Source: Sphaerolaimus hirsutus (lineage: Eukaryota > Nematoda > Chromadorea > Monhysterida > Sphaerolaimidae). Taken from it: DNA of 64,000 nucleotides. The DNA is taken from assembly GCA_964036195.1 (NCBI GenBank), contig OZ038457.1, forward strand, positions 10,629,147-10,693,146, in the 5' to 3' direction. The notes under the pieces were generated by a model. That model was not told the origin of the DNA, did not search any database, and worked only from the letters and a program-made list of their open reading frames with translations. Shown here piece after piece: positions 3,801-44,500 of the stretch (positions within the stretch are counted from its first letter, which is position 1; each line of letters opens with the position of its first letter). The position numbers were made by a program, and so were the translations under genes.

Positions 3801-6800
3801 GGACAGTGACAGAGATGTGACAAGATTTCTGTGGTACAAGGATCCCACGAAACCATCTATGGAGGACAACATTCAGATTTACAGATTTGCCAGAGTGCCA
3901 TTTGGAATAATCTGCAGCCCAGCGCTGCTAGCGCTGACAGTCAGATACCACCTGAATCAAGCTGGCACAGAGAATGCAAAATTGATCGATGAAAATCTGT
4001 ATGTGGATAATTTGATCCTCAGTGTGGATACAGAGCAGAAAGCAATCGAATTGTACCAGGAATCCAAAGTGCTGTTCACAGAGGCACAGATGAATCTGAG
4101 AGAATGGAACAGCAACAATAAGAGTTTTACTTGGCAATTGGCAGAGTCAGATGTGGCCAAGGAAATTGTCACAACAGTCCTAGGAATGAAATGGGACACA
4201 GAGAGCGACCAGATGTGGCTGAAAACGCCAAAGACAGTTCAGCAATCACAATTATCAGAAACTGACCAGAAAATCAATCTTCCCACGAAAAGGACAGTTG
4301 CAAAGGTGACTGCAGGATGTTTTGATCCAATGGGACTCGTCAGTCCTGTCCTACTGCCAGCAAAGAGATTTTTGCAAACGTTATGGCATTCAGGACCAAG
4401 TGCCAAAGAATGGGACACACCCCTGTCTGAGGAACAGACAGCAATTTGGCAGCAATTAGAGACAGAATTGCTCAAAGTTGGACAGATCAAGTTCAATAGA
4501 AATTTGAGTTATCAGAGTGGTGCAGATGCACAACTGCACATTTTCGTCGATGCCTCAGCAATGGCATACAGCGCAGCGGCATACATATGCCAGAAAACAG
4601 AAAATGACAGCGGCACGTCAAGCCTGCTGTACTCCAGATTGAGACTCGCTCCAAAGAAACCAGAAGTGACAATTCCACGGCTGGAATTGTTAGCAATGTT
4701 GATCGGCAGCAGAATGTCAAAATTTATTCACAAAGAGCTCAAGGACGTCAAATTCAGTCAAACAGTTGTATGGTCAGATTCAACCTGTTGTCTGAAGTGG
4801 CTAACAACAGCGAAGCCACTGGCATGTTTTGTCAAGAACAGATTGGATGAAATCAGGAAAATTCAGAGTGAGATAGAGAACATGCACATCAGACACATCA
4901 CAGGACTGGAGAACCCAGCTGACATGGCCACAAGAGGCATGAATATGTCAGAGTTGGAAGGCAGTAACCTGTGGTGGAAGGGGCCAGAATGGCTAATGAC
5001 TGGAGAGTGGCCAGAGCCAAAAGTGGAGCCAGTCACGCCAGAAGTAATGGCAGAAATCAAGAAAGAAGAGCTCAAGTTCCCAAAAGCCAGTCCAATTTAC
5101 CTGGGCGCCACACAGCAAGTGGTCAGTGACCCAGATGCCAGCAATGTGCAAGCTGACGAAAGCAAGCAAAGCAATCCATTGGGAATTGAGATTCAGAGAT
5201 TCTCGTCACTGACAAAGTTACTGGATTCCACAGTATACGTGATGAGATTTATGCGACAGATGAAAAAAAAGCGCAGCAGAAGTGGCAGTCGGAGTGGACT
5301 GTCAGAAATCATGGAAAGTATCTGTGGTACAATGAAACCACAGGGAATTATCAGCATTGAAGAGAGAGAGATTGCGTTGAAATATTGGATCAAAGTGACG
5401 CAACAGAATCATTACAAAGGAGTGGCAGAGATTCTGGCAACAGGCCACAGCAGAGGCAGCCAGAATAGCAAGAAAACAGCTGCAGACCAGCAGTTGATCA
5501 AATGGCTCAATGTGCAAATGCATCAGGATGGAATCCTGAAGTGCCATGGCAGAATGGAGCATACAGACCCACAGGAGGTCACAGTGCCACTCATACTGTT
5601 GCCAGCAATGGCTACAGTGACTCAACTGATCGTCAGAGACCAGCATGAGAAATTGATGCACGCAGGAGTGCAACATACATTGGCAGCGATCAGACAAAAG
5701 TACTGGATTACACAGGGCAGACGGGTGATCTACAATGTGACGAGAACCTGCCCAACCTGTAAGAAATTGGGAGCGAAGCCGTACCAGCTTCCACCAATGC
5801 CAGATTTGCCAGAAACCAGAGTTCAGAGAGCCAGACCGTTCCAGTACACGGGTTTGGATTATTTGGGACCAGTTTGGTACAAAGTGGACAAAGATCACAG
5901 GAAAATGTGGATTTGTTTGTTCACATGCATGGTAACACGTGCAGTTCACCTGGAAAGTGTGCTAGACATGACAGCACAAGAATTCCTGAACGCAGTCAGG
6001 AGATTCATCGCCAGGCGTGGAAAGCCTGAAGCAGTTATTTCAGACAATGCGACGCAATTCAAATTGACAGAGAAAGTGCTCAACACAAGCAATGACAAGG
6101 CCATCAATACTGGAAAGGAATGGTCAGAAATGGTCAAAAATGGAGCCGTACAGACATACTGCTCGCAACAACAAATCCAATGGAACATGACGACTCCCAT
6201 GGCACCGTGGCAGGGAGGAGTCTATGAAAGAATGGTGGGCATCACCAAGAAACATTTCAAAGCAGCTGTAGGGCACAGAATGTTAACCCTGCAAGAATTG
6301 TTGACACTTCTGCCAGAAGTCGAGGCAGTGATCAACAGCAGGCCAATCTCTTACATCTATGGTGATGTAAAGAGCCTCAGAGTGCTGACGCCAAAAGACT
6401 TCCTGACAGGGGAAGGTCAGATTGGAGCACCACAGTTTGATGCAGACAAAGATGGAGAATTTGTGCCCAGAATGGATAACGCAGCGAAACTGCAGAAATA
6501 TTGGGAGACAACCCAGCAAACTTTGGATAAGTTCTGGGACTTATGGCATCAAGAGTATATCCCGAGCTTGAGGGAAAGGACTCAGGTGACGCACAAACAT
6601 GGCAGATTGACAGCGACTCAAGAACCCAAAGTGAATGAAGTTGTGCTGATTTATGAAGAGAACATGCCCAGAGGTGCATGGAGGATGGGTCGCATCGAGC
6701 AGTTAGAGCCCAGCAAAGATGGACAGATTCGCTCAGCAAAAGTCAGAACTGCCAACAGAAATGTGGTCAGCAGACCACTCAATCAATTGTATCCGCTGGA

Positions 6801-9537
6801 AATCAATTCAAAGACAATGGATATCCCAGAGACAGCAGTGACAGTCAAAGTGGATTTACTGGACCCAGCAATTGTCCAGAAACATGTCAGAAATCAGAGC
6901 TCGAACAGAGACTCTGTATCAAACCCTACTCAGAGGAACTCAGTGTCAGATAGAGTCCTGAGGAGTGCAACAGGGAAAACCACAGCAACCACCAGCAGTC
7001 TAGTGATTGGAATGCTGTGCATGGTGTTGATGTTGACAGGCATGTCAGAGTCAGCAACGCTGAGAGAAGCCGGCAAAGCTTACAGCGAAGTATTTTCCAG
7101 AACATACATTCTAGAAACCTCGACAGTAAGGCCACCATCATTGGCAGCGCATCATGGATTGCCGCCTTTGCCTTCAGAATGGCCGCCAAAGTCTGTCAGA
7201 GAGATGCAGACTTATGAGAGATTCAAAGACGCAATCAAGGATCATCCTGTGGAACAGGTGATCAGTTCACAAAGCCAGAAGTATCAGATTTGCACCAGTG
7301 GAAGGCATGGACATGCGCTTACAGTTCCTGAAGAAGTGCAGTGCCATATCCCACCAAGGAATTTTGTCAAGGCAATGAAAGTTACACTTTACGCACAGAG
7401 ACAGATTCCACAGAAAGAGAAAGCATACAGATGCTACATCAGAATCAAAGAAATCATCACACACACCAGTTTCTGGGGAGCGAAAGGCATTACAGGCAAT
7501 TTTGAGAAATACCAGCAAGTTGGCGTGGTAGCCTGTAACTATGCAAGAATTCACAAGATGTTCAGAGGAACACCTTTGGTAGAAATGGAACCCAGAGTGT
7601 GGACAACCAATCAAACCTTGAATGTGGAATATTCATGGTGTTGTCATGACAAAGAAAATGTTGTCAGTAACTTCTACATGGAAGAAGGAACCGTGGCTTC
7701 ACTTGATGGAAAGACTGTAATCAGCGACTTGCAAGATTTCAGCCAGTGCAGAGCCATGATGGGACATTGCAGAGACCACAATTATGGAATCACAGTGTGG
7801 GATACGGAGAATTTCAAGCATCAATGTGCATATGAGAGAATTGGCAGATTCAAATCAGAGATATCTGGCCAGACAATTATTGTATCAAAATTGCAAGCAG
7901 CATACTCCCACAGCAACAAGACAAAGAGGCCAATTGGCTCAGAATGTGTTCCAGGAGACACATACTACACCGATCAAGGAGGTGTATTCATCCAGTTTGA
8001 CAGAAGAGAAGATGTGCCTGTGGAATGGGCAATGCCAGGAAAGATAGTGGAGGCGAGAGAGTCAACAATCAGTGGAACATTGTATGCCAGATTGGACGAC
8101 AGAAACTCCAAGTTTCAGTTCCTGCAACATGTGGTCAGAGAGATGACTCAGGCACAATTTGCGATTGTATGGCATCAGTTATGTCAACTTCGCAAGAACC
8201 AGCTGGACATGTTGACTCAGCTTTTCCGCATCGATCCAACACTGGGGATTCGAGCCATGCTGGGAAGACAGGATGTTCATGCAGAATGGGCTGGAGAAGC
8301 AATTATGTTTTGGGAATGCAAGGAAGTGCAGCCATACATAATTTATCAAACGGGAAAAGTGGGAGAGACATGTTACAAATACACACCAATGAGGTTGGAC
8401 AAAGATGGGCCCTTGTGGTTCAAGAGCCCAGGCAGCAGAGACTTGGTAGAGAAATCACCAGAAGAGGACTGCAGCCACACCACACCGCACCTGTACAGAA
8501 ATGAACATGGACAGTGGAAGTCCGCACATGGAATGGTGCATGTCACAGAGACTCCAATTGAAATGACATGGAAAGGACAATGGCAGGCCTTCACGTTTGA
8601 TGCGCCTCACCTGTTCACCAACATTGTCAACAGAGCGACCAATTTCATGGATGTCAGAGGCCAGATTCAGAGACTACAGAATTTGGAGCATGTGCAGAAC
8701 CAGTTGATCGATTACACAGCAGATATGTCATTGGATCCCAGAGTGATCAGAAATTCAATAGAAGGCATTGGAGCTGGAATTGGACAGACAGCAGCAGGAA
8801 TCGGCAAGGCATATGGTCACTATATATCTGGAGTATCAAAAGGGTACACTAACTTTATGGGAGGAATGTTGAAAGGACCCTTTCAAGTGATCATCAACAC
8901 AATCGCAATGCTGCTGGGAATCACAATCCTGATAGCTGGAATCGTAGCTGCAGGATACCTGTGGTACAATTGGAGAATTGCCACAGGGAAACCAGTGATT
9001 CCACCATGCGTATACACATGCATATGGAAATGCATAGTGTGTCCATTCAAGTGCATATGGCTATGCTTCAGAGCCGTCAGATACACTATCAAGAAGTCAA
9101 CTCAAAAAGAGACCAATTACCCACAGAGAAAAGTACGCAAAACAGAGTTGAGACCAGCAATCAAGAGGAGAGCCAGATCCAACTCAACACAGTCCGTCAG
9201 ATTTGCCAGGAGAGCAGAAACAGAGGACAGAATGGCAAAGTCACTATCAGCATACGTTCAGCCAGATGAAAGTTCAGCTGATGAGGGACAAGTCAGAGCC
9301 AGGAACAGAGACAGTGTTCACATGCCCGATATCCGCAAATTCACCTCACGCGAACGCGCAGGAAGCGACACGGGCAACTACCTGCTTCATCATCAGGCTA
9401 GGTCGGCGTTGGCATCGCCAGCAACCGGACCTGCAACTTCACGCACGCCCACGACTTCGCGCACGACCACGTTCACCACCGAGGCGACTGTGGAAACGCC
9501 ACTCATCACTTTGGCGCCCACCACCACCAGCATGTGA
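811..9537 (+). CDS. BEL/Pao retrotransposon gag-pol-env polyprotein
   Basis: One open frame of 2908 codons with no frameshift or stop. Order, with approximate residues: gag with a DUF1759-like region (180-350) and CCHC knuckles (about 459-472 and just after); A17-type aspartic protease (DTG near 621); reverse transcriptase with YVDN at 1064-1067 instead of YVDD; RNase H (about 1245-1400); integrase with an HHCC finger and D, D, E residues near 1683, 1743 and 1804; a DUF5641-like tail. An env-like segment follows in the same frame: a hydrophobic signal near 2060-2085, a Cys-rich ectodomain, one membrane helix near 2690-2725 and a basic cytoplasmic tail. The order protease-RT-RNaseH-integrase and the A17 type place it in BEL/Pao. 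The env origin is uncertain; capture of a chuvirus-like glycoprotein is known for arthropod BEL elements but was not tested here. The start at 811 is the first Met before gag. The intact frame suggests a young copy. Confidence 0.93.
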   Translation: MKENSSAKMVSPTGHIRKTLGPAKHRVDNRLAREYAKYDQELFAGATKEEKRTEMRRVIASVKQEGAKLDSAMTAVKTQFDAWRDVVKDIEEPDQMEQEQKMYQDSYEEYANMSDLVTQKIAAMNVYIEELQDMIQQLSGSTMYEVNTAFIQQMAAQMALTAQGAAPGASSTNATTAKSVKLQKLEVEQFTGEIVKFRSWWQMFESHIHNRTDLEDISKFSYLRSLLKGSAFGMISGLSVTAENYAPAIAMLKKRYDQPVVVRNTLMSNIMKLRQARNTCQDMRILFDAIERMLQQLESLGESVEHPMLLSQLQQKVPPEVLREIQKEQGTEEALTVENFRKLFGKQLALSEAVQHAQQTEAPVQQSRQGFGNNPRAQQFNNRFQGNGNRFRGPENPRTSTGSMSVIQNGQSAPQAGFMNPGRPCVFCNDTQQLHFNDKCPKFKTARERRVILSKAERCLRCLQKGHYMNQCQFTRSCFYCKSNRHHTAVCPEKFGDNGNGNAGRQIPAFKANGQQNGQQSANNGRKSVPTAGRPAQSQQRKATVNCVTVEEAGPEMVETETISSTVVTEPNTKQQNTSVNLSVNRNMSMLMTARTVIEASEMDTEMEPEQPPLQIQAFLDTGSQGTYMSEKVAKKLNLKSTGEHHIQVYTFGNEKPHYKVVQQVEFRMRLRNGQKVDMVADVVPTLTTEQVKVPVSEQDEKYLQKYFPDESYFADRIPKGKGTECKFKPDIIVGLNYFWDLMSRNTSTTRLPSGLYVIPSELGLLMGGGQLTSNRNQWTTDGAYPVVVNTIVHQIQREKWYEEAPLSIAPVRNVKDMDRLDTIGIMDQPDLVEDDEAIKQFNESVQRNPDGRYSVKFMYKPNLHELPDNKAMAFKRFRYLTNRLKRDPELLEKIQAIMKAQEEQGVIEKVQEDIMDGRKFHILPHQPVITPEKTTTKVREVYDASAKPPGMPSLNECMYRGPVILPQLVGMLMRFRLHGIALVADIEKAFLQISLQDSDRDVTRFLWYKDPTKPSMEDNIQIYRFARVPFGIICSPALLALTVRYHLNQAGTENAKLIDENLYVDNLILSVDTEQKAIELYQESKVLFTEAQMNLREWNSNNKSFTWQLAESDVAKEIVTTVLGMKWDTESDQMWLKTPKTVQQSQLSETDQKINLPTKRTVAKVTAGCFDPMGLVSPVLLPAKRFLQTLWHSGPSAKEWDTPLSEEQTAIWQQLETELLKVGQIKFNRNLSYQSGADAQLHIFVDASAMAYSAAAYICQKTENDSGTSSLLYSRLRLAPKKPEVTIPRLELLAMLIGSRMSKFIHKELKDVKFSQTVVWSDSTCCLKWLTTAKPLACFVKNRLDEIRKIQSEIENMHIRHITGLENPADMATRGMNMSELEGSNLWWKGPEWLMTGEWPEPKVEPVTPEVMAEIKKEELKFPKASPIYLGATQQVVSDPDASNVQADESKQSNPLGIEIQRFSSLTKLLDSTVYVMRFMRQMKKKRSRSGSRSGLSEIMESICGTMKPQGIISIEEREIALKYWIKVTQQNHYKGVAEILATGHSRGSQNSKKTAADQQLIKWLNVQMHQDGILKCHGRMEHTDPQEVTVPLILLPAMATVTQLIVRDQHEKLMHAGVQHTLAAIRQKYWITQGRRVIYNVTRTCPTCKKLGAKPYQLPPMPDLPETRVQRARPFQYTGLDYLGPVWYKVDKDHRKMWICLFTCMVTRAVHLESVLDMTAQEFLNAVRRFIARRGKPEAVISDNATQFKLTEKVLNTSNDKAINTGKEWSEMVKNGAVQTYCSQQQIQWNMTTPMAPWQGGVYERMVGITKKHFKAAVGHRMLTLQELLTLLPEVEAVINSRPISYIYGDVKSLRVLTPKDFLTGEGQIGAPQFDADKDGEFVPRMDNAAKLQKYWETTQQTLDKFWDLWHQEYIPSLRERTQVTHKHGRLTATQEPKVNEVVLIYEENMPRGAWRMGRIEQLEPSKDGQIRSAKVRTANRNVVSRPLNQLYPLEINSKTMDIPETAVTVKVDLLDPAIVQKHVRNQSSNRDSVSNPTQRNSVSDRVLRSATGKTTATTSSLVIGMLCMVLMLTGMSESATLREAGKAYSEVFSRTYILETSTVRPPSLAAHHGLPPLPSEWPPKSVREMQTYERFKDAIKDHPVEQVISSQSQKYQICTSGRHGHALTVPEEVQCHIPPRNFVKAMKVTLYAQRQIPQKEKAYRCYIRIKEIITHTSFWGAKGITGNFEKYQQVGVVACNYARIHKMFRGTPLVEMEPRVWTTNQTLNVEYSWCCHDKENVVSNFYMEEGTVASLDGKTVISDLQDFSQCRAMMGHCRDHNYGITVWDTENFKHQCAYERIGRFKSEISGQTIIVSKLQAAYSHSNKTKRPIGSECVPGDTYYTDQGGVFIQFDRREDVPVEWAMPGKIVEARESTISGTLYARLDDRNSKFQFLQHVVREMTQAQFAIVWHQLCQLRKNQLDMLTQLFRIDPTLGIRAMLGRQDVHAEWAGEAIMFWECKEVQPYIIYQTGKVGETCYKYTPMRLDKDGPLWFKSPGSRDLVEKSPEEDCSHTTPHLYRNEHGQWKSAHGMVHVTETPIEMTWKGQWQAFTFDAPHLFTNIVNRATNFMDVRGQIQRLQNLEHVQNQLIDYTADMSLDPRVIRNSIEGIGAGIGQTAAGIGKAYGHYISGVSKGYTNFMGGMLKGPFQVIINTIAMLLGITILIAGIVAAGYLWYNWRIATGKPVIPPCVYTCIWKCIVCPFKCIWLCFRAVRYTIKKSTQKETNYPQRKVRKTELRPAIKRRARSNSTQSVRFARRAETEDRMAKSLSAYVQPDESSADEGQVRARNRDSVHMPDIRKFTSRERAGSDTGNYLLHHQARSALASPATGPATSRTPTTSRTTTFTTEATVETPLITLAPTTTSM

Positions 9538-29500: not shown

Positions 29501-32500
29501 CTCTAGCTCAACGCTGATTTAAGTTGTGATCATGAAACTTTGGCTAGTGTAAGACACCAGTGTTGACAATGTGCTGATAGTATTCAACACTTTCATCAAC
29601 ATCATTGCTATTAAGGTAAAATTAATATGCAGATCAGGGTGTTGTGCAAGAAACGTGGGAACTGTGATGGATGTTTTTGGTGATCATCTGAGATCGTGTT
29701 GTATTGCAGTGATTTTAATGTTGTTTTGAAATGTGCAGTAAATTATTATGTCAATTAAATTTCATTTGTGTTTCATTACTAATCTGTAGTGGACACATTA
29801 CCTGTGTTTAACAGCAGTGTGCATGAAAAACGCCTCCTGTATTAACCTGTATTGACCAACCGTAGAGGCAGAATGATGAATTTGGTAGTGAGAGTAGTGA
29901 CAGTAATGGCAATATGGACTAGGCTTATGATATAATAGCTAATGTTGGTTAGTGCTGGCACATTGCCAACACTGGTGGCTTACACTAGCCAAAGTTTCAT
30001 GATCACAACTTAAAGCAGCGTTGAGCTAGAGCACCATTTGTACATCAGTACAAAATGACCGAAATTGTAACCCCCACAGTTCCGCAGTGGGTGGAGCTAG
30101 AGGGGCGAAATTTTGGGTGAAAACTCAAAACACCTGACATATTAACGTGTTGAAATTTTATGAGTGTAGCTTACCCCTAGCGTGAATGGCGAGCACTGCC
30201 CGGGGACTTTTCAGCCCGACCATGTACAAAAAATGCATTGAATGTAGAAAATATGGCAATGTACAAACTAGCCTTTGATCTACAACCTTTGATCAGTACT
30301 CATGGTATTCTACAGTTTCATCATACTTTTGTAAAAAGGACGAGATCAATGGAAATTCACCAGCTGGACACAAAGTCAACTTTTGCATTGACATTCGCTG
30401 CATGTCCATCCTTGCATCTCAACAGTGCTGTATCGCATTGCCTCATCAGTAAAATATCAACGCTGAAGAAGTGCCATTATTAGGGATCTTCATACCACTA
30501 CAGTATTTGTTACAGTCTGAAATGTTTCATCAAAGGCCGTAAAATGTGAAATAATGCATGAAAATGATAAATCAATTGATCTAAAGGTGAGAACAGCAGT
30601 GTTTTCTAATGCTCAACAGTGAGAGCTCTTTCTAAAAAAAATTTTACACTTACACTTTTTTTACACTTTCCTAGGTATTTTTAAAATACCTTACACTTTT
30701 GGTATCCATACTCAAAATTTGGAAAGTGTATTTACACTTACACTTACACTTTCCAAAAATACCGGTATTTTAACAACTCTGCTACTAGGTAGGTAAATGA
30801 GTTTGAGCAGAAAATTAGTGTCATCGTATGCAAACTGTAAAGACTGTCTACGATTGTATAATATTATATTTAAGATGAATTAAACAGATCCATAGTCCAT
30901 TGAATACCAACCAACTATACACGGTTCACATACACTAGTACCGTAAATTTTCTAATTCGGCGACAGGTCTCCAATAATACGACATCTCCAATAGTGCGAC
31001 GAGTCATATTTTCGTCACATCTTCAATAAAACTAACAATTTATAAATTGTACCTATTTACAGATGGGATCCATTTACAATTATTCAAAAAAAAGGACATG
31101 AATTCATGTACCTAAACTTCACATTCAGCGGCTTCGCCGAACTAAGAAGGTGGATTTATTCGAGGGGGGAGTTCTTTTCCTCGTGTGATTAACAGGTGGA
31201 GTTATTGAAAGCGAGCTCTTTGAAGACTTATACGGAATAGGATTTGCAATATGTTAAAGCCGATTCTACCCTTTATTTATGTGATAAATTTATCATGAAA
31301 TTTCATGAAAACTGACAGAAAAAAAACATTCCTTAAAAATCCCACACTCGAAAGTCCCCTTTCGAATAAAGCCATTCAAATTTTGCTGGTGAAATGATTA
31401 CCTAACCAAAACATTGGGGTGGTTATTTCGTGGATATAAATAAACATACCTATGTACAACATTCATAGCTCAGTGATTTCATCCGAGCACATTTACCTAA
31501 ACATGTCTAGCCATGTGTTGCATAAAACCCGTTCTAATCTAGCACTGGGCATTTTTTCAAGGTGAGTAGTTATCGTATTACATCGAATAGGCTGTCACTG
31601 GGGCGTTTTCCGAGAAGGAGTTTCACACTCTCGTAGAAGATACCCTCTCAAGACGGTATTGAATGTTGGACCTGCTAAATCACCGAAAATGCATCGGTGC
31701 GCGTGGCTCTAGCGAGGCTAAGTTGTGGCTGCGGCTGCATTCTTCTGCCGGCGGCTGGTGCAGGTGCCGCGTCCAACTGGCGCGACAGGTCGTTCTGCTG
31801 CAGTGCCTGCATAAGATTGACCAGGTTACAGGTGGGATTAGGGCTCGAACTCGACTCGACTCGACTCGTGACTCGAGGGTAAAACAGGGTACCGACTCGC
31901 CTCGTCTGACTCGACCGGAAAAATATGGCCCAAACTCGAGACTCGAAGTTGTTGCCTCACTCGACTCAAAATTTTGGCAAATTTCGAGTCAGGATTTCCA
32001 TTGAATAATGTCCTGAAATATCAATTTTGATATGAAATTTTAAACATATTTTTCAAAAATTTGGCGCGCGAGTGTGATAAATTGTGGATCGGATTTTTTA
32101 TTTTTTTTATTTTATACTTTATTTGGGATTGCTTACGTCAGAAAGAATAAAAATCAATCGAGCAAGCAGCGATTATCCACGTTTACGGTGTACCGCTCCA
32201 ATCTATATACAAACCTACACTATATCTAACCGTTCACACAGCCGATCACTTGCGCCGATCACATGCGAAAGATATCGAAATTCACGCGCGACCTTTGCTG
32301 TGGCTTGTACCGGCTTTGACTCCTGAAATGTGATGGAAAAAAACGACAATCGATGCATGAATATTATCGATTATGATCTCTTACACCTTCGTACCACACA
32401 ACTATTTCAAGCGTTTTGTGTTCACGTGAACCGATTTAAAATAATAAATATTTTACGCATCATAAATTTTCGAGGAATTCCGTAAAAATGTGTACAGAAA

Positions 32501-35500
32501 ACCATAAACAGCAGCCAAAATGGTCGAAACATCATCTTCGGGAGCTCGTTGTTACCCGAAACGTACAACCCATTTTTCGTGCACACGTTGGAACAAATCC
32601 AAACGTAATGGACTCACACTGCCGCATCGTCGAAGTATATGGTCGTAACGTCGACTTGGTTTCGAAGGCTACCATGCCTGCTGGCAGCCGTGTATTGCGT
32701 TTCCGCCCCCGACTGGTCCTGCCCGACGTGCCTGTGATGTTTGACGTATCATCCGGTGGGCATTCGAGGTGAGAATTTGTAAACTTTTAAGCCCTTCCTA
32801 GACACTTTTACATTCCTAAACTTGTGTCCAAAAACGAAATGCCAAAAGTTCAAACTTCCTCAGGTATGAGGCCGTTAGCAAAGTTGACGACGTCACAATC
32901 AATGTTAAGTCCTGGACTTTCCCGCGCGTCCTCTGCCAAGACCACGGTGTGGTTGATAGATTGGCGGAGAATTTCCAGGTGGATTTTCCCCTTCTTGTTT
33001 TTTGGGATCTATTTTGCCTCTTAAGCTGTATCTACTGATTATTTTTAAAAATATTCTATCCAGACCATGACACTTCATACGACACCTACCGACAATATGT
33101 TGGTCGAGGATGGTACAATTCCCGCGCAAGAAAGCCAGTGTCCGACGAACCAAGATGTCCAATGCACCAAGCTGATGTCTAGCGAACACTGGTCGCTGAA
33201 CGGCTCACTGTATGGAACAACGTTAAGCCGTGCGACGGCTTCCTGCAAGAGAGGCATGATTGAAGTGGAACTAAGTGCCAACTAGCAACGTTCAAGTAAT
33301 GTGATGTTTGTCTATTTTTCCCCCTCATGTTTTTTGGTAGATATACTTATTTTTATATGATGAGTTTCCCGTATTTTCTTTTGACGGTTCAATTTTTGGC
33401 TGCAATATTAAATATATTGCTTGGTAAAATAAAGATGGCGCCCGTCAAAAATTAAAGATGGCGTCCTGAAGATAAAGATGGCGTCCATATGATGATGACC
33501 ATTTATTATTGGTATTTTCAATATTTTAACCCACACACTGTACTATAACTACATAGATGCATGAAAAATGCCGAGGAAATTTGATTTGGACGTGTATCTG
33601 GGTCTAGTCCAGATTACCCCACTGATCCAATAGCAACTTTTCCAGCATTTTTCCACGCATATATGTAGTATGGCACAGTGTACTAGTCTCTATACCGAGT
33701 AATTTTTCATACCTTCTATTATCAACTTGTCCACTGCCTTCCTGTGGGCTGGGCAAATCCATTTTGATAACCAATCATTTCTAGAGGCACATTGCGATAC
33801 ACACTTTAGTTCCATGATGGTATGTCTATATTGTTCCAAAGCTGAACAGTTGTATAAAATGTGGTCTTGATCACAAATTACTTTAAGCCCTAATATTGTG
33901 CATTTCGAGCATGTTTTACTATTAGTTCCGTTATGGTGCCTAAGTGCATTATGACGTGCTGCAAACCAAGCTAGATGGTTGAAGTGTACCCCCCCCGGGT
34001 GCATTTGTTCGCCTATATCATTCCTTATTGTGCAGACTTTTTGGTTCGTAACCGTTTTCTTTGATGATGATATTCTATGATGCCTACATGCAAGTTTAAC
34101 GTTTGTTTTCGTAAGGGCGCGTGCTATAGATACTGGGAGTGAGATATCCGTGCAACAAGAATTCATTCGCGATGAAAGTGTACTGATATTTTCCTTTCGT
34201 AGGCGTATATTGTCTTGTAGTTTTGCGTCGCTTATCATAGCTGTTTTTAGGAGTCTATCTGTTGGTAAACTATTTCCATAATTGGTGAAGGTGATAGTCA
34301 TCTGTCGAAATCTATCGGAAGGTAGTTCTCCTCCCAAATCCAGCAGCAGACTATCTCCGCTTGCAGATTGAGGTAGCCTGCAGCAACGCTTCATAGTCCG
34401 TAGGTAAAGTTTATCCATTTTTGTTAGGATACCTTTGTTACATCCGGTAACTTCTAGTCCATACATGCTACCACTCTCTACATATGATTTCCAAGCTGTC
34501 TTACCATACAGAAGTGGTTTCGTTGTTTTTTGTGCCGAGAGGATAGCTAGACTGCTATTCTTTAGCATTTTGTTGTAACATGTTTCCATGTGTTTTTTGA
34601 ATGGTGTTTTTGTATTTGATATCAGCACTCCTAGATACTTTATTTCGTCGATTTCTTTTATATATCCTATCTCTTTGTTTGCATTGTAGCCTAGCTTCCA
34701 TTTTATATTGTGTCGTGGTGTACCCCATCTAATTACCGCCGATTTTTCTTGATTTATCGAGACGTTCCATTTCCAAGCCCAATCTGTAAATGTTTTCATT
34801 AACATCTGCAATTCATTTTCTGTGTTCGATAGAATGCAGATGTCATCAGCGAAGAAGAGACCCGGTATTTTTGGCAACCCGCGGTCTATCTTTGCACCGT
34901 AACTGGTGTTCAAAAGTTCTGTTGCTAAGTCGTGCATGTATATTGCGTAGAGGGTAGGACTTAAGGCACATCCTTGTGCAACTCCGATTGGATAATCCAT
35001 TTCATCACTTATATAATCACCGTAAGTCATTTTCACCTTAATATTTGAGTATGCATTTTTTACAGCGTTGGTGAGTAAACTCGGTAATCCCATGTTACTC
35101 ATTTTCGCCCATAGTTTTTCTCGATCCACTCTGTCAAAGGCTTTAACTGCATCGACGAAACATGTGTAAAAGGAAGAGCCGTTAGCCTTAGCATAAGCAT
35201 GACATGTGTTTATGATTTGTACGTTATCGCATGTTCGTCTGTTTGGACGGAATCCGCCTTGCAATTCGGTGAAGCTATTTGCTTTTTCTAATAGGAACAT
35301 TAGTTTATTGTTTAATAGTATCATGTAAAGTTTTTTGATGTTGCACGAGATTCCAATTGTTCTGTAGTTTTGCATATTTGCTTTGTCCCCCTTTTTATGC
35401 AGTAAAACTAATTTGCACAATACTGCATCGGTCGGTATCACCGATCCGTGCAACCACGAATTGTATAGTTGTACTAGATAACTTCTTATATTTTCTGTTA

Positions 35501-38500
35501 AAAATTTCAAGTGTTCGTGATGAATCCCTGTCGTACCAGGCGATTTATTTTGTTTTAGTTGCTTTATTGCTGCATCCACTTCTTGCAGTGTGAAGTCTTG
35601 GGTTATAGCATCTATATCATCTTGGTCGAACTTTTGATCATGCACTGTATATGTTGTAGGCGAGCCCGGGTTTTTTGTCATTATATTGTCCCATACTTTT
35701 GTCATTTCTTTGTTCATTTCCGTTGTGGTCTCTATCTGTTTGCCATCGGATGTTTTAATAGTCGTCACTACTCTTTCTGAATGCCAATTTTTATTTATAT
35801 GTTTGTATATGTCCTTCATCTCCTTCCCCTTCTGCTGCATGACATTTTCTATATGTTTTTCATTTGAACATATATATAATAGACGTTTTTCTTTCTTGAG
35901 TGCATTTTTCAGACGTTTTAGTTCATCGCCCAATTCGGTACTGTATCCTATTCGTATTTTACGCCTTGTTTTGGCGATGTTCCTATGTAGCTTCTGAATC
36001 GTGTGTGGAACCGAAACATTTTTTGCAAATATCTTCCTGTCTTTTGTGGCAGCATTAGAGGCAGCGTGTATTTCGCTAACCACCTCCTCATATGTCTCCA
36101 CCGATTTGTGTTGAAGTGATTTGCAGTATTCTTCCCACTCAAGGCCCTTAGGTTTTCGGTCTTGTTTGATTCTTTTTTTTATATCTAGGGATCCGTCTAA
36201 GTTCAGTATTATAGCGTGGTGGTCTGATAGAAGAGGACATTTCGTACCAGAATTGTCTATGTAGCCGTTTATGTCATCATGTCCAAAATTTGTAAAGCAG
36301 TAGTCAATAACCGTTTGACAATTAGTATGCTCAAATGTCCATATGTCTGAGAAAACTGAATTTACTAGTGTTGGCCCGTATTCTGCCATCCAGTCACGTA
36401 TTAGTTTTCCGTTTATGTTGATATCACTATGGTTATTTGGTAGGCCCAGGTCATCATTACCAATATGCCCGTTAAAATCCCCGATAATCAAAGTCTTTTG
36501 CCCATAATTTGAGTGGTGTAGTAATGTTTCCCCCATTTCCTTGAGCAGCGCCTCATTTTTATCTTGAATCTGTACTGACTTCTTTGATTTGCTATTGTTT
36601 TCTAGATAGCATGTTAAGAAGTTGTAAGTTTGCAATTTAGTATCAATCGAAATGCCAACTAAATTTGACACGTTTTGAAAAGACAGTGATTTGTATGGTA
36701 TATTATCTTTAACATATATAGATATACCACCCGTCTTTACATCAGTTTTAAAAGTGTGTATCGCATTATAGCCTGGTACCCTTATTGCATCTGTGGCACA
36801 TCTGAAATGAGTCTCGACGAAAAACATTATGTCGGCACTCACATTTTTAACCGCTGCAAAAAGTTCTTCACCTTTCCATCTTAACGAACGTGCATTTTGA
36901 TATAGTAATGTAATAGGTAGAGACATGGTATTTGCCACCATAAATTGGTCAACACAAGTGTCGGCGCATTCGTTTGAAATTGCATTTATTGGATCTATCG
37001 TAAGGAAAAAAGTGCAAAAAAATGTCCAACTGTGTAGCCAATTACCCGTTTTGCTAGTATACCATAAAACGTAAACAATGTTTATCATCCACATAAAATT
37101 TTGGAAAGCTGGCTTGCTGCCAAATGTAATAACATTGAAAATAAAACGATTTAAGCGCCTAAGTGCATTATCTATCAGTCCTGAGCTGATTGGTGGGCAA
37201 AGTGTTGAGTCAGCGTCCGCGCACCGGGTGTTTTGTTCATGTCCGTCACGCGGGAGTTTGTGTCCTGCGTGTTTACGATGAATTATTGCAATGTCCATAG
37301 TGGCTATACTATCGACTGACATTTTAACTAGTTCGCGCCGTATCAGTTCACAAATAACCATGTTGCCAAATTCTGCAGTGTGTATACCATCGCGTGCCAT
37401 AAGGCGTAAGAATAGGTCGATGCTGTCGTCACAGTTGCACTCGGCATGTTCCTCGCGCACAAATTTTATCAACGGCAATATGGTCACATTTGCTAAGTCC
37501 TTATTGGCGAGATCAATTAGCGCATTTTCTAATTTACTAAAAAACAAGAGCGTATCCGCACATAACAGGCGAGACCAACCATTTTTCAGGTGCCTATTCA
37601 TGGTCGGACCGATAAGCGATAAAATGAATTTTCCCTTAGGTTGCAGTTTAAGTCCAGTTGACACCAACACAGCTTTGATGCACTTGAAAACACCCGCGAT
37701 AAAAAAGTCGTCGACGCATGTGGCGCTGAAATTCTCTGTGAAATACTGATCTGCGTCACATGCGTCTAACACACAGCGAATTATTACAGCATCGTAACAT
37801 GTTTCGAATTGGACGTCTGCCAACGCAGCGCAAATAGTCGGTAGGCATTTGCCACTAAACATTGATTTGGTACTATGGACAGTAACAGGCAACTTATGGC
37901 TGGCACAGTCGGCGCTAAGCATCAATTGAATCGAATGAGCACATGAGTCGCCCGCGATGAGTACCGTATAAAAATACTCATACGCATTATCGTAATCGAC
38001 GCCAATTTTAGAGCAGTGGTTCCGGAAGGCCGGATTTGAATCACTATCGCGGTACGATATTTTGGGACCCATATCGCATGAGATGTGTAGATTTCGCAAA
38101 ATCTCAAGGGGGGACATTTTTTTATATCCAAATTGCTTTTCCGTGAAAATTGCAGTTTCTGGATTCTTCGCCCCTGACTTGACAAATGAAGCCAGCGTTT
38201 TGGCGCATCGAGCAGCCGTGATAGGTGCCAAATGGCTCAGGCGCATGCCTTTAGGCACATGGCGGATCATTCCGGTGTGGCCCATCGCACGTACCTGATT
38301 GGTGGGGGGTGGATTTGTCGTCCTTTTCACAAAGCGTAAGCCGGCGGCAGCGCTTGCCTGTGCGTGGCCTGCGTAGGTGCCATCGATCGCTGCCGTGCGC
38401 TGCGGCTTGGGCGCGTTTGTCGACGACTGGCCACCTATGTATATTATGATGTGTAACGGAATTACGTTAAAAGTTGGAACAGTGCCAAACGGTTGTGAAT

Positions 38501-41500
38501 GTGTTCGTATAAATTTACCTGGCACACTGTCAATCATCGGTTCATCACAGCCGAAATTTGGTTGTTGCATTCTCTGCTGGCGACCCTGGCGAACCACCGT
38601 TGCCATCTGTACGTCGGGCCCGCGTGGCACGTTCGCTGTAAATAGACACACTTTTTCGATGGGAATAAAGTCAGTTGAGAAAACGTTGAATTTATAAGTC
38701 TGTATTTTAATATTGTACAACGTCAACGTTGTGGAAAATGTCTCTACGTACAACGTAAAAATTTTCGGTGTATCCAAAAATTGAATTAATGTTAAATTGG
38801 TCTCATAGTTCACATTATACGTACCATTATTTGGCAGTCCCGGGAATTCGCCCTCCCAGTAAGGATCAGTGTCTATCAACGGTTCTTGCATAGTGCGTAA
38901 ATCTTCCTGTGTTTGTTGATGGGCTGTCCGATTTTGACGACTGCCCCCGTATGCGCCACGCTCTGTGTGACACGTTTTAAGCAGGAATGTATTTATTAGC
39001 AATATGACTACAATTCCACATTTGATCAACCAACCTTTATACGAGTTTCCACCGCGAGATAAATTTCTATTTTGACTCCCGTTTCCACGCCCGCGGCTGT
39101 TGAAGTCACGCCCGCGCTGGTTCTGCTGGCGACCACGTTGCCCACCGGTGTCGTCATTTCGTTGTCCACCACGGCCACCGCGGGCACCGCCCGGTCCAGA
39201 TAAGCCCTTGCGCAGTTCGGCGTCGTTGCGTTTCTGAGCGTGCATCGATGTGGTGTATATTTTATCTGTAGGACAATTATTGTCACAAATGTGTAGTTTG
39301 GTGTCTATCGATTTTCTGAATTCGTTTATATACGATGAAAGTTGTATACTGTACATACCCACCTTTTGAATATACCATTGTGGTGGCAGCAGGTTCGCTT
39401 GAGTTCTTGCGTACAGGTTGCCAAAGTCCATCGCGCAGAACTGTTTTTCTTTTTGAAATTTGCCGAATGACCCCATATCGGGGACATATTCCAGCGAGCC
39501 ATCGTCCATTCGTTTTGAAAAAACGGTTTCTTCGGTGAGTGTTTCTCGGATTTCCATCAGGGCTTCCCCATAAAGGTTCATGTAGGGCGCCAGGTAGTGG
39601 GGCCCGTCGGCCGTTGTCGCGGTGCACTGCGGGGGTATGTGTATGTTGTTGTTGTCTAATGACCTACCGTGGAAGTGTGACCGCGTATGAAACAGTGTAT
39701 ATGACAAGTGTGTATCAGTAAAAAGTAACCCTAAGCATGTCTTAAGTCGTCGTATTTTGGCGTATATGTTTTCTTCCCTTATTTTAAGTATTTGTGGGTA
39801 ACATGGGGGATCGGCAGGGGTAAATATGACAGTAAGGCCAACCTCTAAGCGCCCTTTGTTGTACCCGCTCATCATAGCGCCCTTCCATCCGTAGTTCGGT
39901 GCTTCGCCTGCACATCTAATCTCTCTGTTGGTGATAATCCAGCCGCCCTCTACTTCGTCGTGGCCAGTTGCCCACAGAAGTTGCCTGAGGGATGTAGGAT
40001 TAGAATGCGATGATTTCAAAGTCAATGTCAAGTTTTCGTATTTTGAGTTGAATATTAAAGAAATATGTTGTACATTTGCATAAGTGTCATATGAGATATC
40101 ATACTTAATCGGTATTTTGCTAGTGTATACTGTTCCCAAGATGTATTGCCATCTTATTGTTCTTTTTGTAACGCGTCTGGCTCTATTCACTATAGAATGA
40201 TTTAAAAAAGTCACCCACCGCAATCCTACATTGTTCTCTGCGGCATTCTGAAGAATTACGAGCAGTGCCGTGTACGCGAAAGTTTTCTTGGCGTCTGAGA
40301 CTGTCTCATATAATCTGCCCGACCCGGTAGTTCTGCCATTACCGGGCTTGAACCAGACTGTACCAATGTCCACGTTTTGTTCTTTCACGTATCGACCTAT
40401 GTTCCCAGCTATCCTCTTTGCGCACCGGCTGAATTCATGAAAGCCCGCATCCCATTGCAGGCCGTCTGTCACCGCGAAAAGTTGGTGCAAATTTATGGCG
40501 GTACTGGCCAAAATTTGGCTGCCGCAAGCCTTGGCCTCGGCCTGAGTGGGTAAGTGTAAATATGTGTAATTTTCACCATGTTTACATTTGAGTAGTAAAT
40601 GCTTAGGTTTTACCAATAAATGTCTATTGACAGATAATATCTGAATTCGCGCAAAAATATTCTTTAGTCTTAAACTTGTTATTTTTTGTTTCATACTTGT
40701 TTTACATTCTAGAGAGTACCTCAAGGATGGCACGTAGTTTGTACCTTTTTGGCAAGGTGCCATATTGTACTCATGGATTGTGAAGCAGATGTGTTGACTT
40801 ACATATATTAGCGCCGTCAGAATGCAGTCGAACATAGCCCCATCGTATCGCACTTTCCAATTATAGTATCCGCCAAAGGGGTCGGTTGGATCGTCGAAAC
40901 AAATGACGACATCTTGCACGCTTGTGTTCGACGACGACGCACCCCCTTTGTCGATCTTGGATGCTGGTTGGGATTTTTCCATCTGCGACATGGATGTGTA
41001 AATTGTAGCTTGTATGTAGGGCTTGCATGTTATGAGTAACAGGCCATTGACGTTATTTTGTCGATTACAGTTTTTGATAAGATTTTTTAAGCGTATCATT
41101 GAAAGTACATCTTGAGTATCGGGCAAATATGCTAATATTAATCCCCACTGTGTATACATTCTGCTTCCATAGCCATAGAAAAATGCAAAACTGACTTCTG
41201 CCATCGCTTGTATGGTGCGTGGGCATTTTGCAGATCGAACAACGGTGCTGGCAGGCTCGTTAGACATCTGTTTGCGTTTTGATGAGCCCGGTACCTCGGC
41301 AGTGTTCGAAATGTTGTGAATTTTGCCTCGTTCCAGAGCCATCAGCCGCAGTCTGATGTTGGCTAGGCAATCGTCTGTTTTCTTGTCCGTCTGTGTTTTA
41401 GAGTTTACATGTATGTATTGTGACGTGTAGTATGCAGACATTGGCAGATAAAACAGATTTGATGACAGTTCTATAATAGGCATTTTCATGTGTATGGGTG

Positions 41501-44500
41501 ATGTTTCAGATTGATACGAAACCATGTGTAGGTGTTTAAACTGAGTTTTTCTACATTTTACCAGACCAATACCAATGGAAGCGGTAGTTGTACCCAAATT
41601 CATGGTTGACCCATTGCTAACCTCGTGTAATTTTCGAACCTCGGTTTCGAGCGTTTCGAGTCTAGCTGAAATTTTTCTTGTTTCCGTAGCAAATTCTTCT
41701 TTCGATCGGGCGTCGAGTTGACCCATGGCCGAAGCGACTTGTATTTCCAACTGTAATGAGTAAAGCAGTAGTTGCATGGGAGTACCTGCATCTATGTATA
41801 CGATAGATATTATTATGTGCCTGCACTCTATAGATATTTCGGTAGATATTTTTTCAGCATATTTTTCTTTTTTAAAAACCCGTTTTTCAAAAATGTGATT
41901 TATTGTGTAATAAAATATGTAGGCTGTGCAAGCTAGTTTGTCGCACGAGTTTACCATGTATGTATCAGTTGAATCGGTGTCATAGTTTGCCAGCTTTTCA
42001 AAAGTGTTTTTTACTAGAGTAGACTTTTTTAAAAAACCGTGTAACATAGCAACATCAATCCGTATGCACCTATTACTAACCCTCTGCAAATAATCTCCCT
42101 GTCTTCGTCGTCCTTCTTCTAGGTCTCTAATCAAGTGCACTAAGTAGGCGACATCTTGCGAATTAGGCGTTAGCGTCGGATTTTCTAAAAGTTTGTCCTC
42201 TAGGCTGCCTGCCAATTCGTAGGGGTGAAGCTGTGTACCCGCCATTAGATGTCCAGCGGACGCATGGACTGTTACCGGCTCCCAGCTGACAAATGAGCCT
42301 GTCGCATCGCAACCTGTGAAAGCGGGATATGTACCATATAGCAACATGTCAGATAAGTAGCTATAAATAGATATTCTGTCAATCAATGAGTTTTTCAAGT
42401 GTATATAGCTGATACAATCAATTTTCATGTCTAAATACTGTGAATCGTATCCTATGAACCGGTACATATACCGAAACGGTAACCCCCGGTAACCTTTGGC
42501 TTGGGCGAACGAAATCATCTTTTTTGAGTTGCCGAAATCTGTCCGCACAACGACACCAGAGTCAAGTTTCAAATGTCCTTGATGGCCGGCGTAGTAGCCG
42601 CCGTATTTAGTAGGGTCGAAACCGATACCGTAGTTGACATATGGTTCGTCCACGTTGTCAACGTTTTGGTCGTTGTCACTGGAGTCATCTAAATTTACCG
42701 GCGCAGCGTCGTGTGACTCTTTTGAATTTTGCGCGTCTTGTGTCTGCCCCCGTTCTAAATTCGCCGACAAAATTTGTGCGTTGACAGTTGTCAGCTTTCC
42801 AACATCCGGATCGACTGTATTCAATGGCATCGCGTCAGTGGCTGTGGTTGGCGCCACCGGATCCGATTTTTCATTCTCAAGATTGGAATCTGAGTGAAAA
42901 GTGGGAGACCATGATGAATGTATGTACGAATTATACTTATTGGAATGGTGATTTTCGTATATTGACAACGTCAGAGTTGTGAGAATTTGTAGTATATTTA
43001 TATTATGTAGGTGTTTACCGGTAGAGGGCGCATAGTGTAATCGTTCAAGTGTTCTCCATGTTTTGACAATGTCATATCTTTCAATTTTGACCCCCCTCGA
43101 GTGAAATGCGACCAGTGTGAACGTGTACTCACCCACAGTACTATCGACCTTGCTGCGATCCGAGTTTCTAAATTGTGGTAGAGCGCTGTTCTTGGGTTTC
43201 GCCGCAGGCGTGGTCAAGTTTTGGGATGCAGAACGATTCCTGGCAGCCACAGTCACTTTTGCAACTTTTTTCGATTGTGCACTCTGTTTTGCAGTTGTGT
43301 TTTGCGCTGCCGCTATTGTCGACGCGCGCAGAGCTCGTGCTGACATTGTCAGTGTGTCTAGCGCGTTTGTCGGCGTCTGTAAGGAGGGTGTCGACTCGTG
43401 ACTCGAGGGTAAAACAGGGTACCGACTCGCCTCGTCTGACTCGACCGGAAAAATATGGCCCAAACTCGAGACTCGAAGTTGTTGCCTCACTCGACTCAAA
43501 ATTTTGGCAAATTTCGAGTCAGGATTTCCATTGAATAATGTCCTGAAATATCAATTTTGATATGAAATTTTAAACATATTTTTCAAAAATTTGGCGCGCG
43601 AGTGTGATAAATTGTGGATCGGATTGGCATATGGATTATTGAATGGTGTTTAAACTCAAGATTCTTATTACCATACAATTCTACATAATGTGCGTGCACA
43701 CGCTAGTTTAGTGCCAGATTTTGGTAAACTCATAAATCGGCTTTGATAAAATGCATTTGAGTTTACTGAAATGAGTTATTCTTAATCCTCATCAACCGCA
43801 GTTGACAGATATGACATTCTGGTAAACTCAAATGCGTTCAAAGCTGATTCATTAGTTTACCAAAATCTGGCAGTAAACTAGCGTGTGCAGCGCCACATGC
43901 GAAACACACACACACCACCTCAAATGCATTGCACAATGTTGGCACTGATCCAAAAAAGGCCTATTTTATTTTTGCAACTTTATTTGTAGCAACATGAGTG
44001 ATAAAAAATTTTTTTTGCTTTATCTTGATATTTAAATGAACTGTTGGCGTTTAGACTTCATTAAGTGTGTGTCAAAACATTGGTAGAGAAACCAGTGTCA
44101 AAAATTACTGCAATGGTCATACCAAAAAGTAACGCATACGACTCGACTCGAGACTCGAGATTTTTGCCTGACTCGACTCGACTTTTCACTGGCTCACACG
44201 ACTCGACTCGCCGACTCGACCGGAAAAAATTTGGAGTTGCGACTCGAACTCGAGTTTGAAAAAAATCGAGTTTCGAGCCCTAGGTGGGATGCTTGTGTAT
44301 GGTATGTCAACAGCGTATACTTGCAGTGACTGAGTGTTCGAAATAACGCAAAAGATAATGAAAATACTTTTCTCTGTAGAGAATCATCATTTTTATAACT
44401 TACGCTTTGCAAAAAATCTGCGCCCATTATCGCTGCTTATTTTAAGTACCCAATTAAAACTGCTCCATGGCCGCGGCCACCCGCCGAACGGTACCCAACA

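Follow-up and report, generated by a model that had tools for sequence, protein, structure and literature searches.

A LINE family of Sphaerolaimus hirsutus that probably uses spliceosomal introns as a switch between Gag and Pol

The window analyzed here, a 64,000-nucleotide stretch of Sphaerolaimus hirsutus DNA (assembly GCA_964036195.1, contig OZ038457.1, positions 10,629,147 to 10,693,146), carries on its minus strand a long interspersed nuclear element (LINE) with a single open reading frame (ORF) of 3218 codons. Judging from this copy and its genomic relatives, the element probably relies on spliceosomal introns to switch between Gag and Pol: spliced RNA would encode Gag, and unspliced RNA would encode the endonuclease and reverse transcriptase (EN-RT) and serve as the template. 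Comparison of copies shows the predicted Gag gene to be split by 13 to 14 introns at fixed positions. It also shows both predicted coding capacities, as full splicing would give a product of 1218–1255 aa and full retention leaves one frame from the leader to the reverse transcriptase (RT).

The ORF extends from an ATG at 43346 to a stop codon at 33690–33692 (33690..43346, minus strand), within a stop-to-stop frame of 3286 codons (33690..43550). A first-pass annotation had described it as a LINE ORF open through a dozen intron-like segments, and the frame is indeed open on re-translation. The genome (348 Mb in 762 contigs) was searched with a 212-residue segment of the endonuclease domain (36192..36827, minus strand), yielding 592 candidates, 150 of which were scored. 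Frames of at least 3000 codons surround 26 of the 150 scored matches, including the window copy, and the longest has 4293 codons; giant frames are a family trait. Ten copies were compared: W (the window copy), L010, L012, L013, L017, L021, L023, L025, L026 and L028. These are nine of the 26 long-frame places plus L012, whose frame has 2789 codons, and they were selected for long frames. Identity among their compared parts is 30–59%, introns included. Eleven of 20 loci (L009, L011, L014–L016, L018–L020, L022, L024 and L027), which have a short open frame upstream of the endonuclease, lie outside the intron tables; introns are present in these as well where exons could be placed, and some are no longer multiples of three.

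Alignment of W, L010, L012, L013 and L017 gives highly similar blocks that are interrupted at the same places by unalignable stretches of differing length. The edges of these breaks are GT (GC in i4 of L010) and AG, and each break falls in phase 0, 1 or 2, with the same phase in every copy. Given all three phases are represented, the borders track nucleotides rather than codons. The same intron positions are found in a second group (L023, L025, L026 and L028) and in the lone copy L021. When borders were chosen, the first pick was GT-AG in 127 of 136 cases; seven were then moved and one (i12 of L021) was dropped, and the final borders are GT-AG in 134 of 135 cases, the remaining one being GC-AG. 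The majority donor is AG/GTNAGT (the slash marks the border) and the majority acceptor YNCAG. The shortest intron has 52 nt and the longest 819 nt; GC content is 0.30–0.365 in introns and 0.49–0.52 in exons.

The window copy contains 13 introns (i1–i13) and 14 nt of a further one, intron 0, and the Gag gene of the family has 13 to 14 introns. The "dozen" segments are therefore real introns by copy comparison, although their number was slightly underestimated, and the two given as examples at first pass, 42890–43132 and 40542–40802, coincide to the base with i1 and i6 when judged against the other copies. All coordinates that follow are on the minus strand. The intron 0 remnant (43377..43390), CACCCTCCTTACAG, consists of a polypyrimidine tract and the acceptor TTACAG; its donor side is missing here, and the CAG acceptor lies at the same place in L010, L013 and L017. 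Exon 2 (43133..43376), which contains the ATG at 43346, is kept in these three copies and is absent from L012. Copy comparison then places, all open in frame, i1 (42890..43132, 243 nt, phase 1, GTGAGT...TTCACTCAG), i2 (42314..42493, 180 nt, phase 1), i3 (41751..42080, 330 nt, phase 0), i4 (41391..41621, 231 nt, phase 0), i5 (40983..41195, 213 nt, phase 0), i6 (40542..40802, 261 nt, phase 0, GTAAGT...CCCACTCAG), i7 (39985..40218, 234 nt, phase 2), i8 (39627..39842, 216 nt, phase 0), i9 (39234..39362, 129 nt, phase 0), i10 (38963..39034, 72 nt, phase 1, dividing RGG-rich exons), i11 (38636..38824, 189 nt, phase 1) and i12 (38435..38518, 84 nt, phase 1). The long last Gag exon before i13 occupies 37317..38434.

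In-frame stops are absent from all 7993 intron codons of the ten copies, versus 611 of 7974 (7.7%) and 641 of 7926 (8.1%) in the other two frames. Given the copies were selected for long frames, these off-frame counts are the proper control, and the openness of every segment noted at first pass is beyond chance. Throughout the ten copies, i0–i12 contain no stop and have lengths divisible by three, the latter being a consequence of both flanks sitting in one open frame. The first-pass annotation, which had picked phase-matched borders where there was a choice, treated the segments as multiples of three, which holds for i1–i12 and fails for i13 (37265..37316, 52 nt), the most telling intron.

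The content of the introns, on the other hand, is not conserved. Exon peptides are 70.9% and 65.8% identical within the two groups; for homologous intron peptides, the corresponding identities are 23.2% and 22.7%, versus 22.8% and 23.5% for unrelated introns, such that homologous introns, unlike exons, are no more alike than unrelated ones. With blastn at 1e-4, none of 588 homologous intron pairs match. Two introns of L021, i5 and i9 (288 and 783 nt), are partly built of repeated units and still stop-free in frame. Since introns are too diverged among the full-length copies of the window's family, the ratio of nonsynonymous to synonymous substitution rates (dN/dS) was obtained from a sister subfamily (L029–L041). 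In seven copies it is 0.61–0.88 in introns and 0.10–0.23 in exons, with similar synonymous divergence, so the comparison of conservation inside and outside the segments proposed at first pass finds a clear difference. The intron values come from four introns and 101 codons at most, one of the four being recognized by GT-AG borders and comparison with L042 rather than by observed loss; an eighth copy, L030, presents no intron difference and gives no intron ratio. Stops in this subfamily number two in the introns of L038, one in the exons of L041 and two in those of L040. The sister-subfamily introns evolve near neutrally, and the exons do not. What the comparisons show for the predicted intron peptides is freedom from stops and frameshifts, with no conserved sequence. 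Selection acts against stops, and little or not at all on residues.

Intron i13 is 52–76 nt long and of length 3n+1 in all ten copies. Most copies offer several AGs downstream of the donor, and in all ten the acceptor is the first one at a distance of 40 nt or more; in the window copy, a single AG lies between 30 and 130 nt past the donor. When i13 is retained, the giant frame continues to the endonuclease, and when it is spliced, the frame shifts and ends after 26–35 codons at a stop, which is TGA in nine copies and TAG in one. Given this length, RNA spliced at i13 cannot encode the RT in frame. In the window, the spliced-frame Gag C-terminus and its TGA (37175–37177) occupy 37175..37264, which is read in the retained frame too. 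The shifted-frame C-terminus is conserved in the ten copies, even between pairs only 30–33% identical overall, with tails such as NQTPGNRTLTQHFARQ in L010 and L012, RTPANTLPLSQHFARQ in L025 and L028, and QPITHHFTRLP in L021. This conservation suggests selection on the spliced reading, and the same bases remain open when read in the retained frame. An equivalent of i13 is still present in the sister-subfamily copies L029 and L030, where the matching donor gives candidate lengths of 44, 70 or 88 nt, the latter two being 3n+1. The proposal made at first pass, that splicing would give a shorter Gag-like protein and retention everything through the RT, fits the coding capacity, with the amendment that the last intron shifts the frame.

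The predicted spliced product has 1253–1255 aa in W (without exon 1), L010, L013 and L017, 1218–1227 aa in L023, L026 and L028, and 1251 aa in L021, its i12 included; L012 and L025, which do not have the 5' exon, were left out of these figures. It contains an RGG-rich stretch, and its long last exon, which may be SGNH-hydrolase-like, carries the motifs GDS and DG[IL]H in each of the ten copies. Pfam reports a weak SGNH match in four of the ten (best E 0.0013), the window copy not among them, and a PDB sequence search at E 5 returned no match. SGNH/GDSL hydrolases, such as the ORF1 esterase of CR1-like LINEs, have their catalytic Ser in GDS and an Asp-x-x-His motif. No conserved AUG that could serve as a separate Pol start was found: L012 has none in frame between i13 and the endonuclease, and L010 and L017 have a single one apiece, differently placed. 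A T-rich linker (36900..37174 by sequence reading, lower bound approximate) separates the Gag stop from the endonuclease, and transmembrane-like 19-aa windows occur in this region in nine of the ten copies, the window copy being the exception. Homologous regions present linker ends such as PINAIG, which resemble a signal-peptidase site.

Exact losses of introns are found in recent copies of the sister subfamily, and these take the place of the splice junctions in RNA that were proposed as a check at first pass. L029, L030 and L031 are 99.8% identical where compared, yet L030 lacks exactly 72 nt (AAG/GTATGT...TACAG/GGG) and 120 nt (AAG/GTTGGC...TTGCAG/ATG), both of which are present in L029 and L031. 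A genome search with the L029/L030 region, in which 16 candidates were scored, added nine more copies. Among these, L034 lacks both segments, L036 lacks the 120-nt segment alone, and L035 lacks the 72-nt segment and a 63-nt segment (TCG/GTGACA...TTCAG/ATT) that, by our reading, lies at the i8 position. Each of the three lost segments has GT-AG borders and a length divisible by three; the other gaps of at least 20 nt in the same alignment are not GT...AG and correspond to ordinary indels or poorly aligned ends. In a tree, L030 sits among L029 and L031, both of which bear introns; L036 groups with L040, where the 120-nt intron is present. Given this nesting among intron bearers, there were at least six independent losses: at least two of the 72-nt segment, at least three of the 120-nt segment and one of the 63-nt segment. 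Only splicing before reverse transcription would readily explain repeated exact losses; deletion by microhomology could mimic one, but hardly all.

Elsewhere, intron presence was judged from exon-by-exon spacing, which is approximate; the i12 spacings are an artifact and were ignored. Spacing was measurable at two or more junctions in 18 of 24 sequences, and every measured junction from i1 to i11 retains a gap of 33–882 nt. The genome was also searched with joined Gag exons, with 67 of 499 candidates scored; among the 200 matches listed, there are matches that stop close to the junctions, some running slightly into introns.

Under the proposed switch, fully spliced RNA would be translated into a functional Gag. 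Unspliced RNA would be exported and translated over its full length, giving a giant fusion whose useful part would be EN-RT, and would be copied in cis by the RT translated from it, as in L1. The copied RNA would then be the unspliced one, as also proposed at first pass: given splicing of i13 abolishes the RT frame, RNAs without i13 cannot copy themselves, which would explain both the inheritance of the introns and the readability of each. The evidence tilts towards an element that enforces its own intron inheritance in this manner. Only RNA keeping i13 would encode the RT and be copied in cis, every intron would have to be translatable, and some 600–980 translated intron codons would be held open by selection on stops and frame, with almost no constraint on content.

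Several points weigh against this account. Partly spliced RNA has, by the exact losses, certainly been copied at times. The losses observed are all in one sister subfamily, with none among the measured spacings of the window's relatives. In a more distant copy, in a 4347-codon frame at C13:26524485-26525162, among the matches listed, the Gag match is continuous across the i7 and i8 junctions, and this copy seems to have neither intron. RNA without i0–i12 that keeps i13 would also encode Gag-Pol, hence the model accounts for readable i0–i12 only where the template is usually RNA with no intron removed. With some 600–980 non-conserved residues inside Gag, the unspliced product might function badly as a protein, and both its synthesis and the action in cis are inferred. 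The selection of copies by long frames also counts on this side, off-frame stops being the control. Lastly, the 5' leader is open as well, which the model does not predict: in the 390 nt upstream of the first ATG of seven copies (L010, L013, L017, L021, L023, L026 and L028), there are no in-frame stops in 910 codons, versus 50 and 40 in the other frames. Upstream AUGs occur in all frames of the leaders, and none is conserved. Within an apparent 5'-untranslated region (UTR) intron, the leaders of five of the seven copies present TTGGCN5GCCAA palindromes, which are like NFI sites.

The openness of the leader would be covered by a different reading of real introns, namely that openness, in introns and leader alike, serves RNA survival through nonsense-mediated decay or other checks on premature stops, and that Pol is made from partly spliced RNA keeping i13 alone. 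Such partly spliced RNAs exist, since there are copies lacking just one or two introns. This reading would, however, have copies missing most introns as the usual product, and the measured i1–i11 junctions keep their gaps (18 of 24 sequences). We consider it unlikely as the full explanation, yet it and the proposed switch are not mutually exclusive, and both may hold.

The two remaining explanations are far less probable. Stop-free introns could be a habit of the host genome rather than a trait of the element, and the family search did give long open-frame values for some host chaperonin exons. The chaperonin sequence does not bear these out: two introns of one gene, 516 and 386 nt long, contain 16, 8 and 8 and 9, 3 and 5 stops in the three frames, and the length of the 386-nt intron is not divisible by three. 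Although this covers one gene and two introns, a host habit is not what it shows, and we regard such a habit as very improbable. Slightly more improbable still is that no splicing takes place and that the AT-rich segments form rapidly evolving linkers within a single giant protein. That the frame is open across all segments of ten copies suits such a protein, but GT-AG borders in all three phases, an i13 that is out of frame with the spliced frame beyond it conserved in all ten copies, and three such segments missing exactly at their borders in relatives do not.

Regarding the class of the element, the sole Pfam domain in the window ORF product is the reverse transcriptase domain RVT_1 (PF00078, residues 2651–2907, 34626..35396, E 1.7e-30). 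Among solved structures, the chains of R2 and L1 ORF2p are nearest in sequence, aligning with the EN-RT part at an E value of about 1e-24. The endonuclease has no Pfam match in the window protein; many distant EN-RT homologs carry PF03372 or PF14529, and the window product presents GDFNGH and SDHH motifs, which we take to be features of an APE-type endonuclease. A Pfam scan of the ORF found no GIY-YIG endonuclease, a weak negative given the scan missed the endonuclease too, although the homologs carry APE-type domains; nor did it find a protease or an integrase. Searches for homologs elsewhere with residues 2190–3218 of the ORF product (2 matches) and the EN-RT part (36 matches) returned distant RTs only, none above 28% identity. 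A search with two aligned spliced Gags had no match and thus gave no Gag relative. As all of these depend on 5-residue words in common, the lack of relatives is weak evidence. The LINE-type RT, the mode of insertion and the truncation together mark the element as a LINE, one for which a new expression strategy is proposed.

The window copy is bracketed by an exact 235-bp direct repeat (31861..32095 on the 3' side and 43391..43625 on the 5' side of the element), most simply read as the long target-site duplication of a young insertion. It is unusually long for a LINE, and GACTCGA repeats occur in the same region. The element therefore seems to span 32096..43390 on the minus strand (11,295 bp), with its 5' end inside intron 0, 14 nt ahead of exon 2. 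The direct repeat and the 5' truncation, both marks of target-primed insertion, are thus present in this copy. As the insertion apparently ends at 43390, the frame above that position is flank. The copy has neither the leader nor the small first exon that carries the likely native ATG. A likely upstream first exon is in frame in seven copies; it starts M[AGS]D... in L010, L013, L017 and L028 and is less similar in L021, L023 and L026. The start assigned at first pass, the ATG at 43346, does begin the 3218-codon ORF, but it is not conserved, with N at that place in L010, L013 and L017, the aligned relatives that have the segment, and in this 5'-truncated copy it is probably not the native start.

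The 3' UTR (32096..33689 by sequence reading) contains repeats of [A/G]CGCCATCTTTA. The CGCCATCTTTA motif recurs at 33400–33530 and in L032 and L033, and the form in L010 and L013 is often GCCGCCATCTTTA; the motif resembles the reverse complement of a YY1 site. In L015, the Gag exon matches lie on the strand opposite to the rest of the element, as would follow from inversion of the 5' end during insertion. Gag is interrupted in L031 (near 4456), L041 and L042 by insertions of some 510 nt or longer, the one in L031 having 8-bp overlapping ends that resemble a target duplication. The window also contains a BEL/Pao long terminal repeat (LTR) element (811..9537, plus strand), whose 2908-codon ORF is intact and includes, in the C-terminal part, a fusion glycoprotein domain of the Monjiviricetes type (Pfam E 4.8e-15).

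Copying of spliced RNA is expected to strip retroelements of their introns, and copies without introns are a standard sign of retrotransposition. The LINE family presented here keeps 13 to 14 introns over distant subfamilies, and the reason seems legible, as the frame gate ties the RT to RNA that is unspliced there. The family thereby offers a natural test of cis preference and shows what becomes of a sequence that is mainly required to contain no stop. Genome annotation could easily overlook such introns or break the gene. The first-pass annotation knew of no LINE built this way, and our full-text literature searches, judged by titles and abstract openings, likewise found none with many readable introns or a frame-shifting gate intron.

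Exitrons are removable coding segments, multiples of three and stop-free, that remain under constraint as coding sequence. Introns i0–i12 resemble them in being multiples of three without stops, which i13 is not, and the element's introns differ in having no amino-acid constraint (by dN/dS in the sister subfamily) and in including one out of frame. In retroviruses, unspliced RNA is both genome and Gag-Pol message, and spliced RNA gives other proteins. The switch would give a LINE a retrovirus-like control of the Gag:Pol ratio, although retroviruses have LTRs and their splicing yields Env and accessory proteins rather than Gag.

In Drosophila copia, Gag is produced from spliced RNA. The Ty1/Copia element EVD of Arabidopsis does likewise: its spliced short GAG RNA (shGAG) is the main source of Gag, and its unspliced RNA gives Gag-Pol, as described in the passages on shGAG in PMC8892269. 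The same division, with Gag from spliced and Gag-Pol from unspliced RNA, is present here by predicted coding capacity. EVD, however, is an LTR element with a single shGAG intron coupled to premature polyadenylation (PMC8892269), whereas the present element is a LINE with 13 to 14 stop-free Gag introns, the last of which shifts the frame. Penelope-like elements also carry introns through replication, for which an antisense template was argued and an unspliced sense one left possible (PMC3846280). They have another class of RT and a GIY-YIG endonuclease, and the passages of PMC3846280 that deal with their introns state no open-intron rule.

A parallel to the losses is found in human L1. The RT of L1 favors the RNA it was translated from, and the spliced integrated retrotransposed elements (SpIREs) arise when host-spliced LINE RNA is reverse transcribed, leaving a copy without the intron that is defective in retrotransposition, according to the sections of PMC5860796 on these copies. 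The likeness lies in genomic copies exactly without a GT/AG segment, here L030, L034, L035 and L036. The difference is that the spliced copies of L1 are defective, whereas in the present family both the splice sites and the frame are conserved across distant subfamilies.

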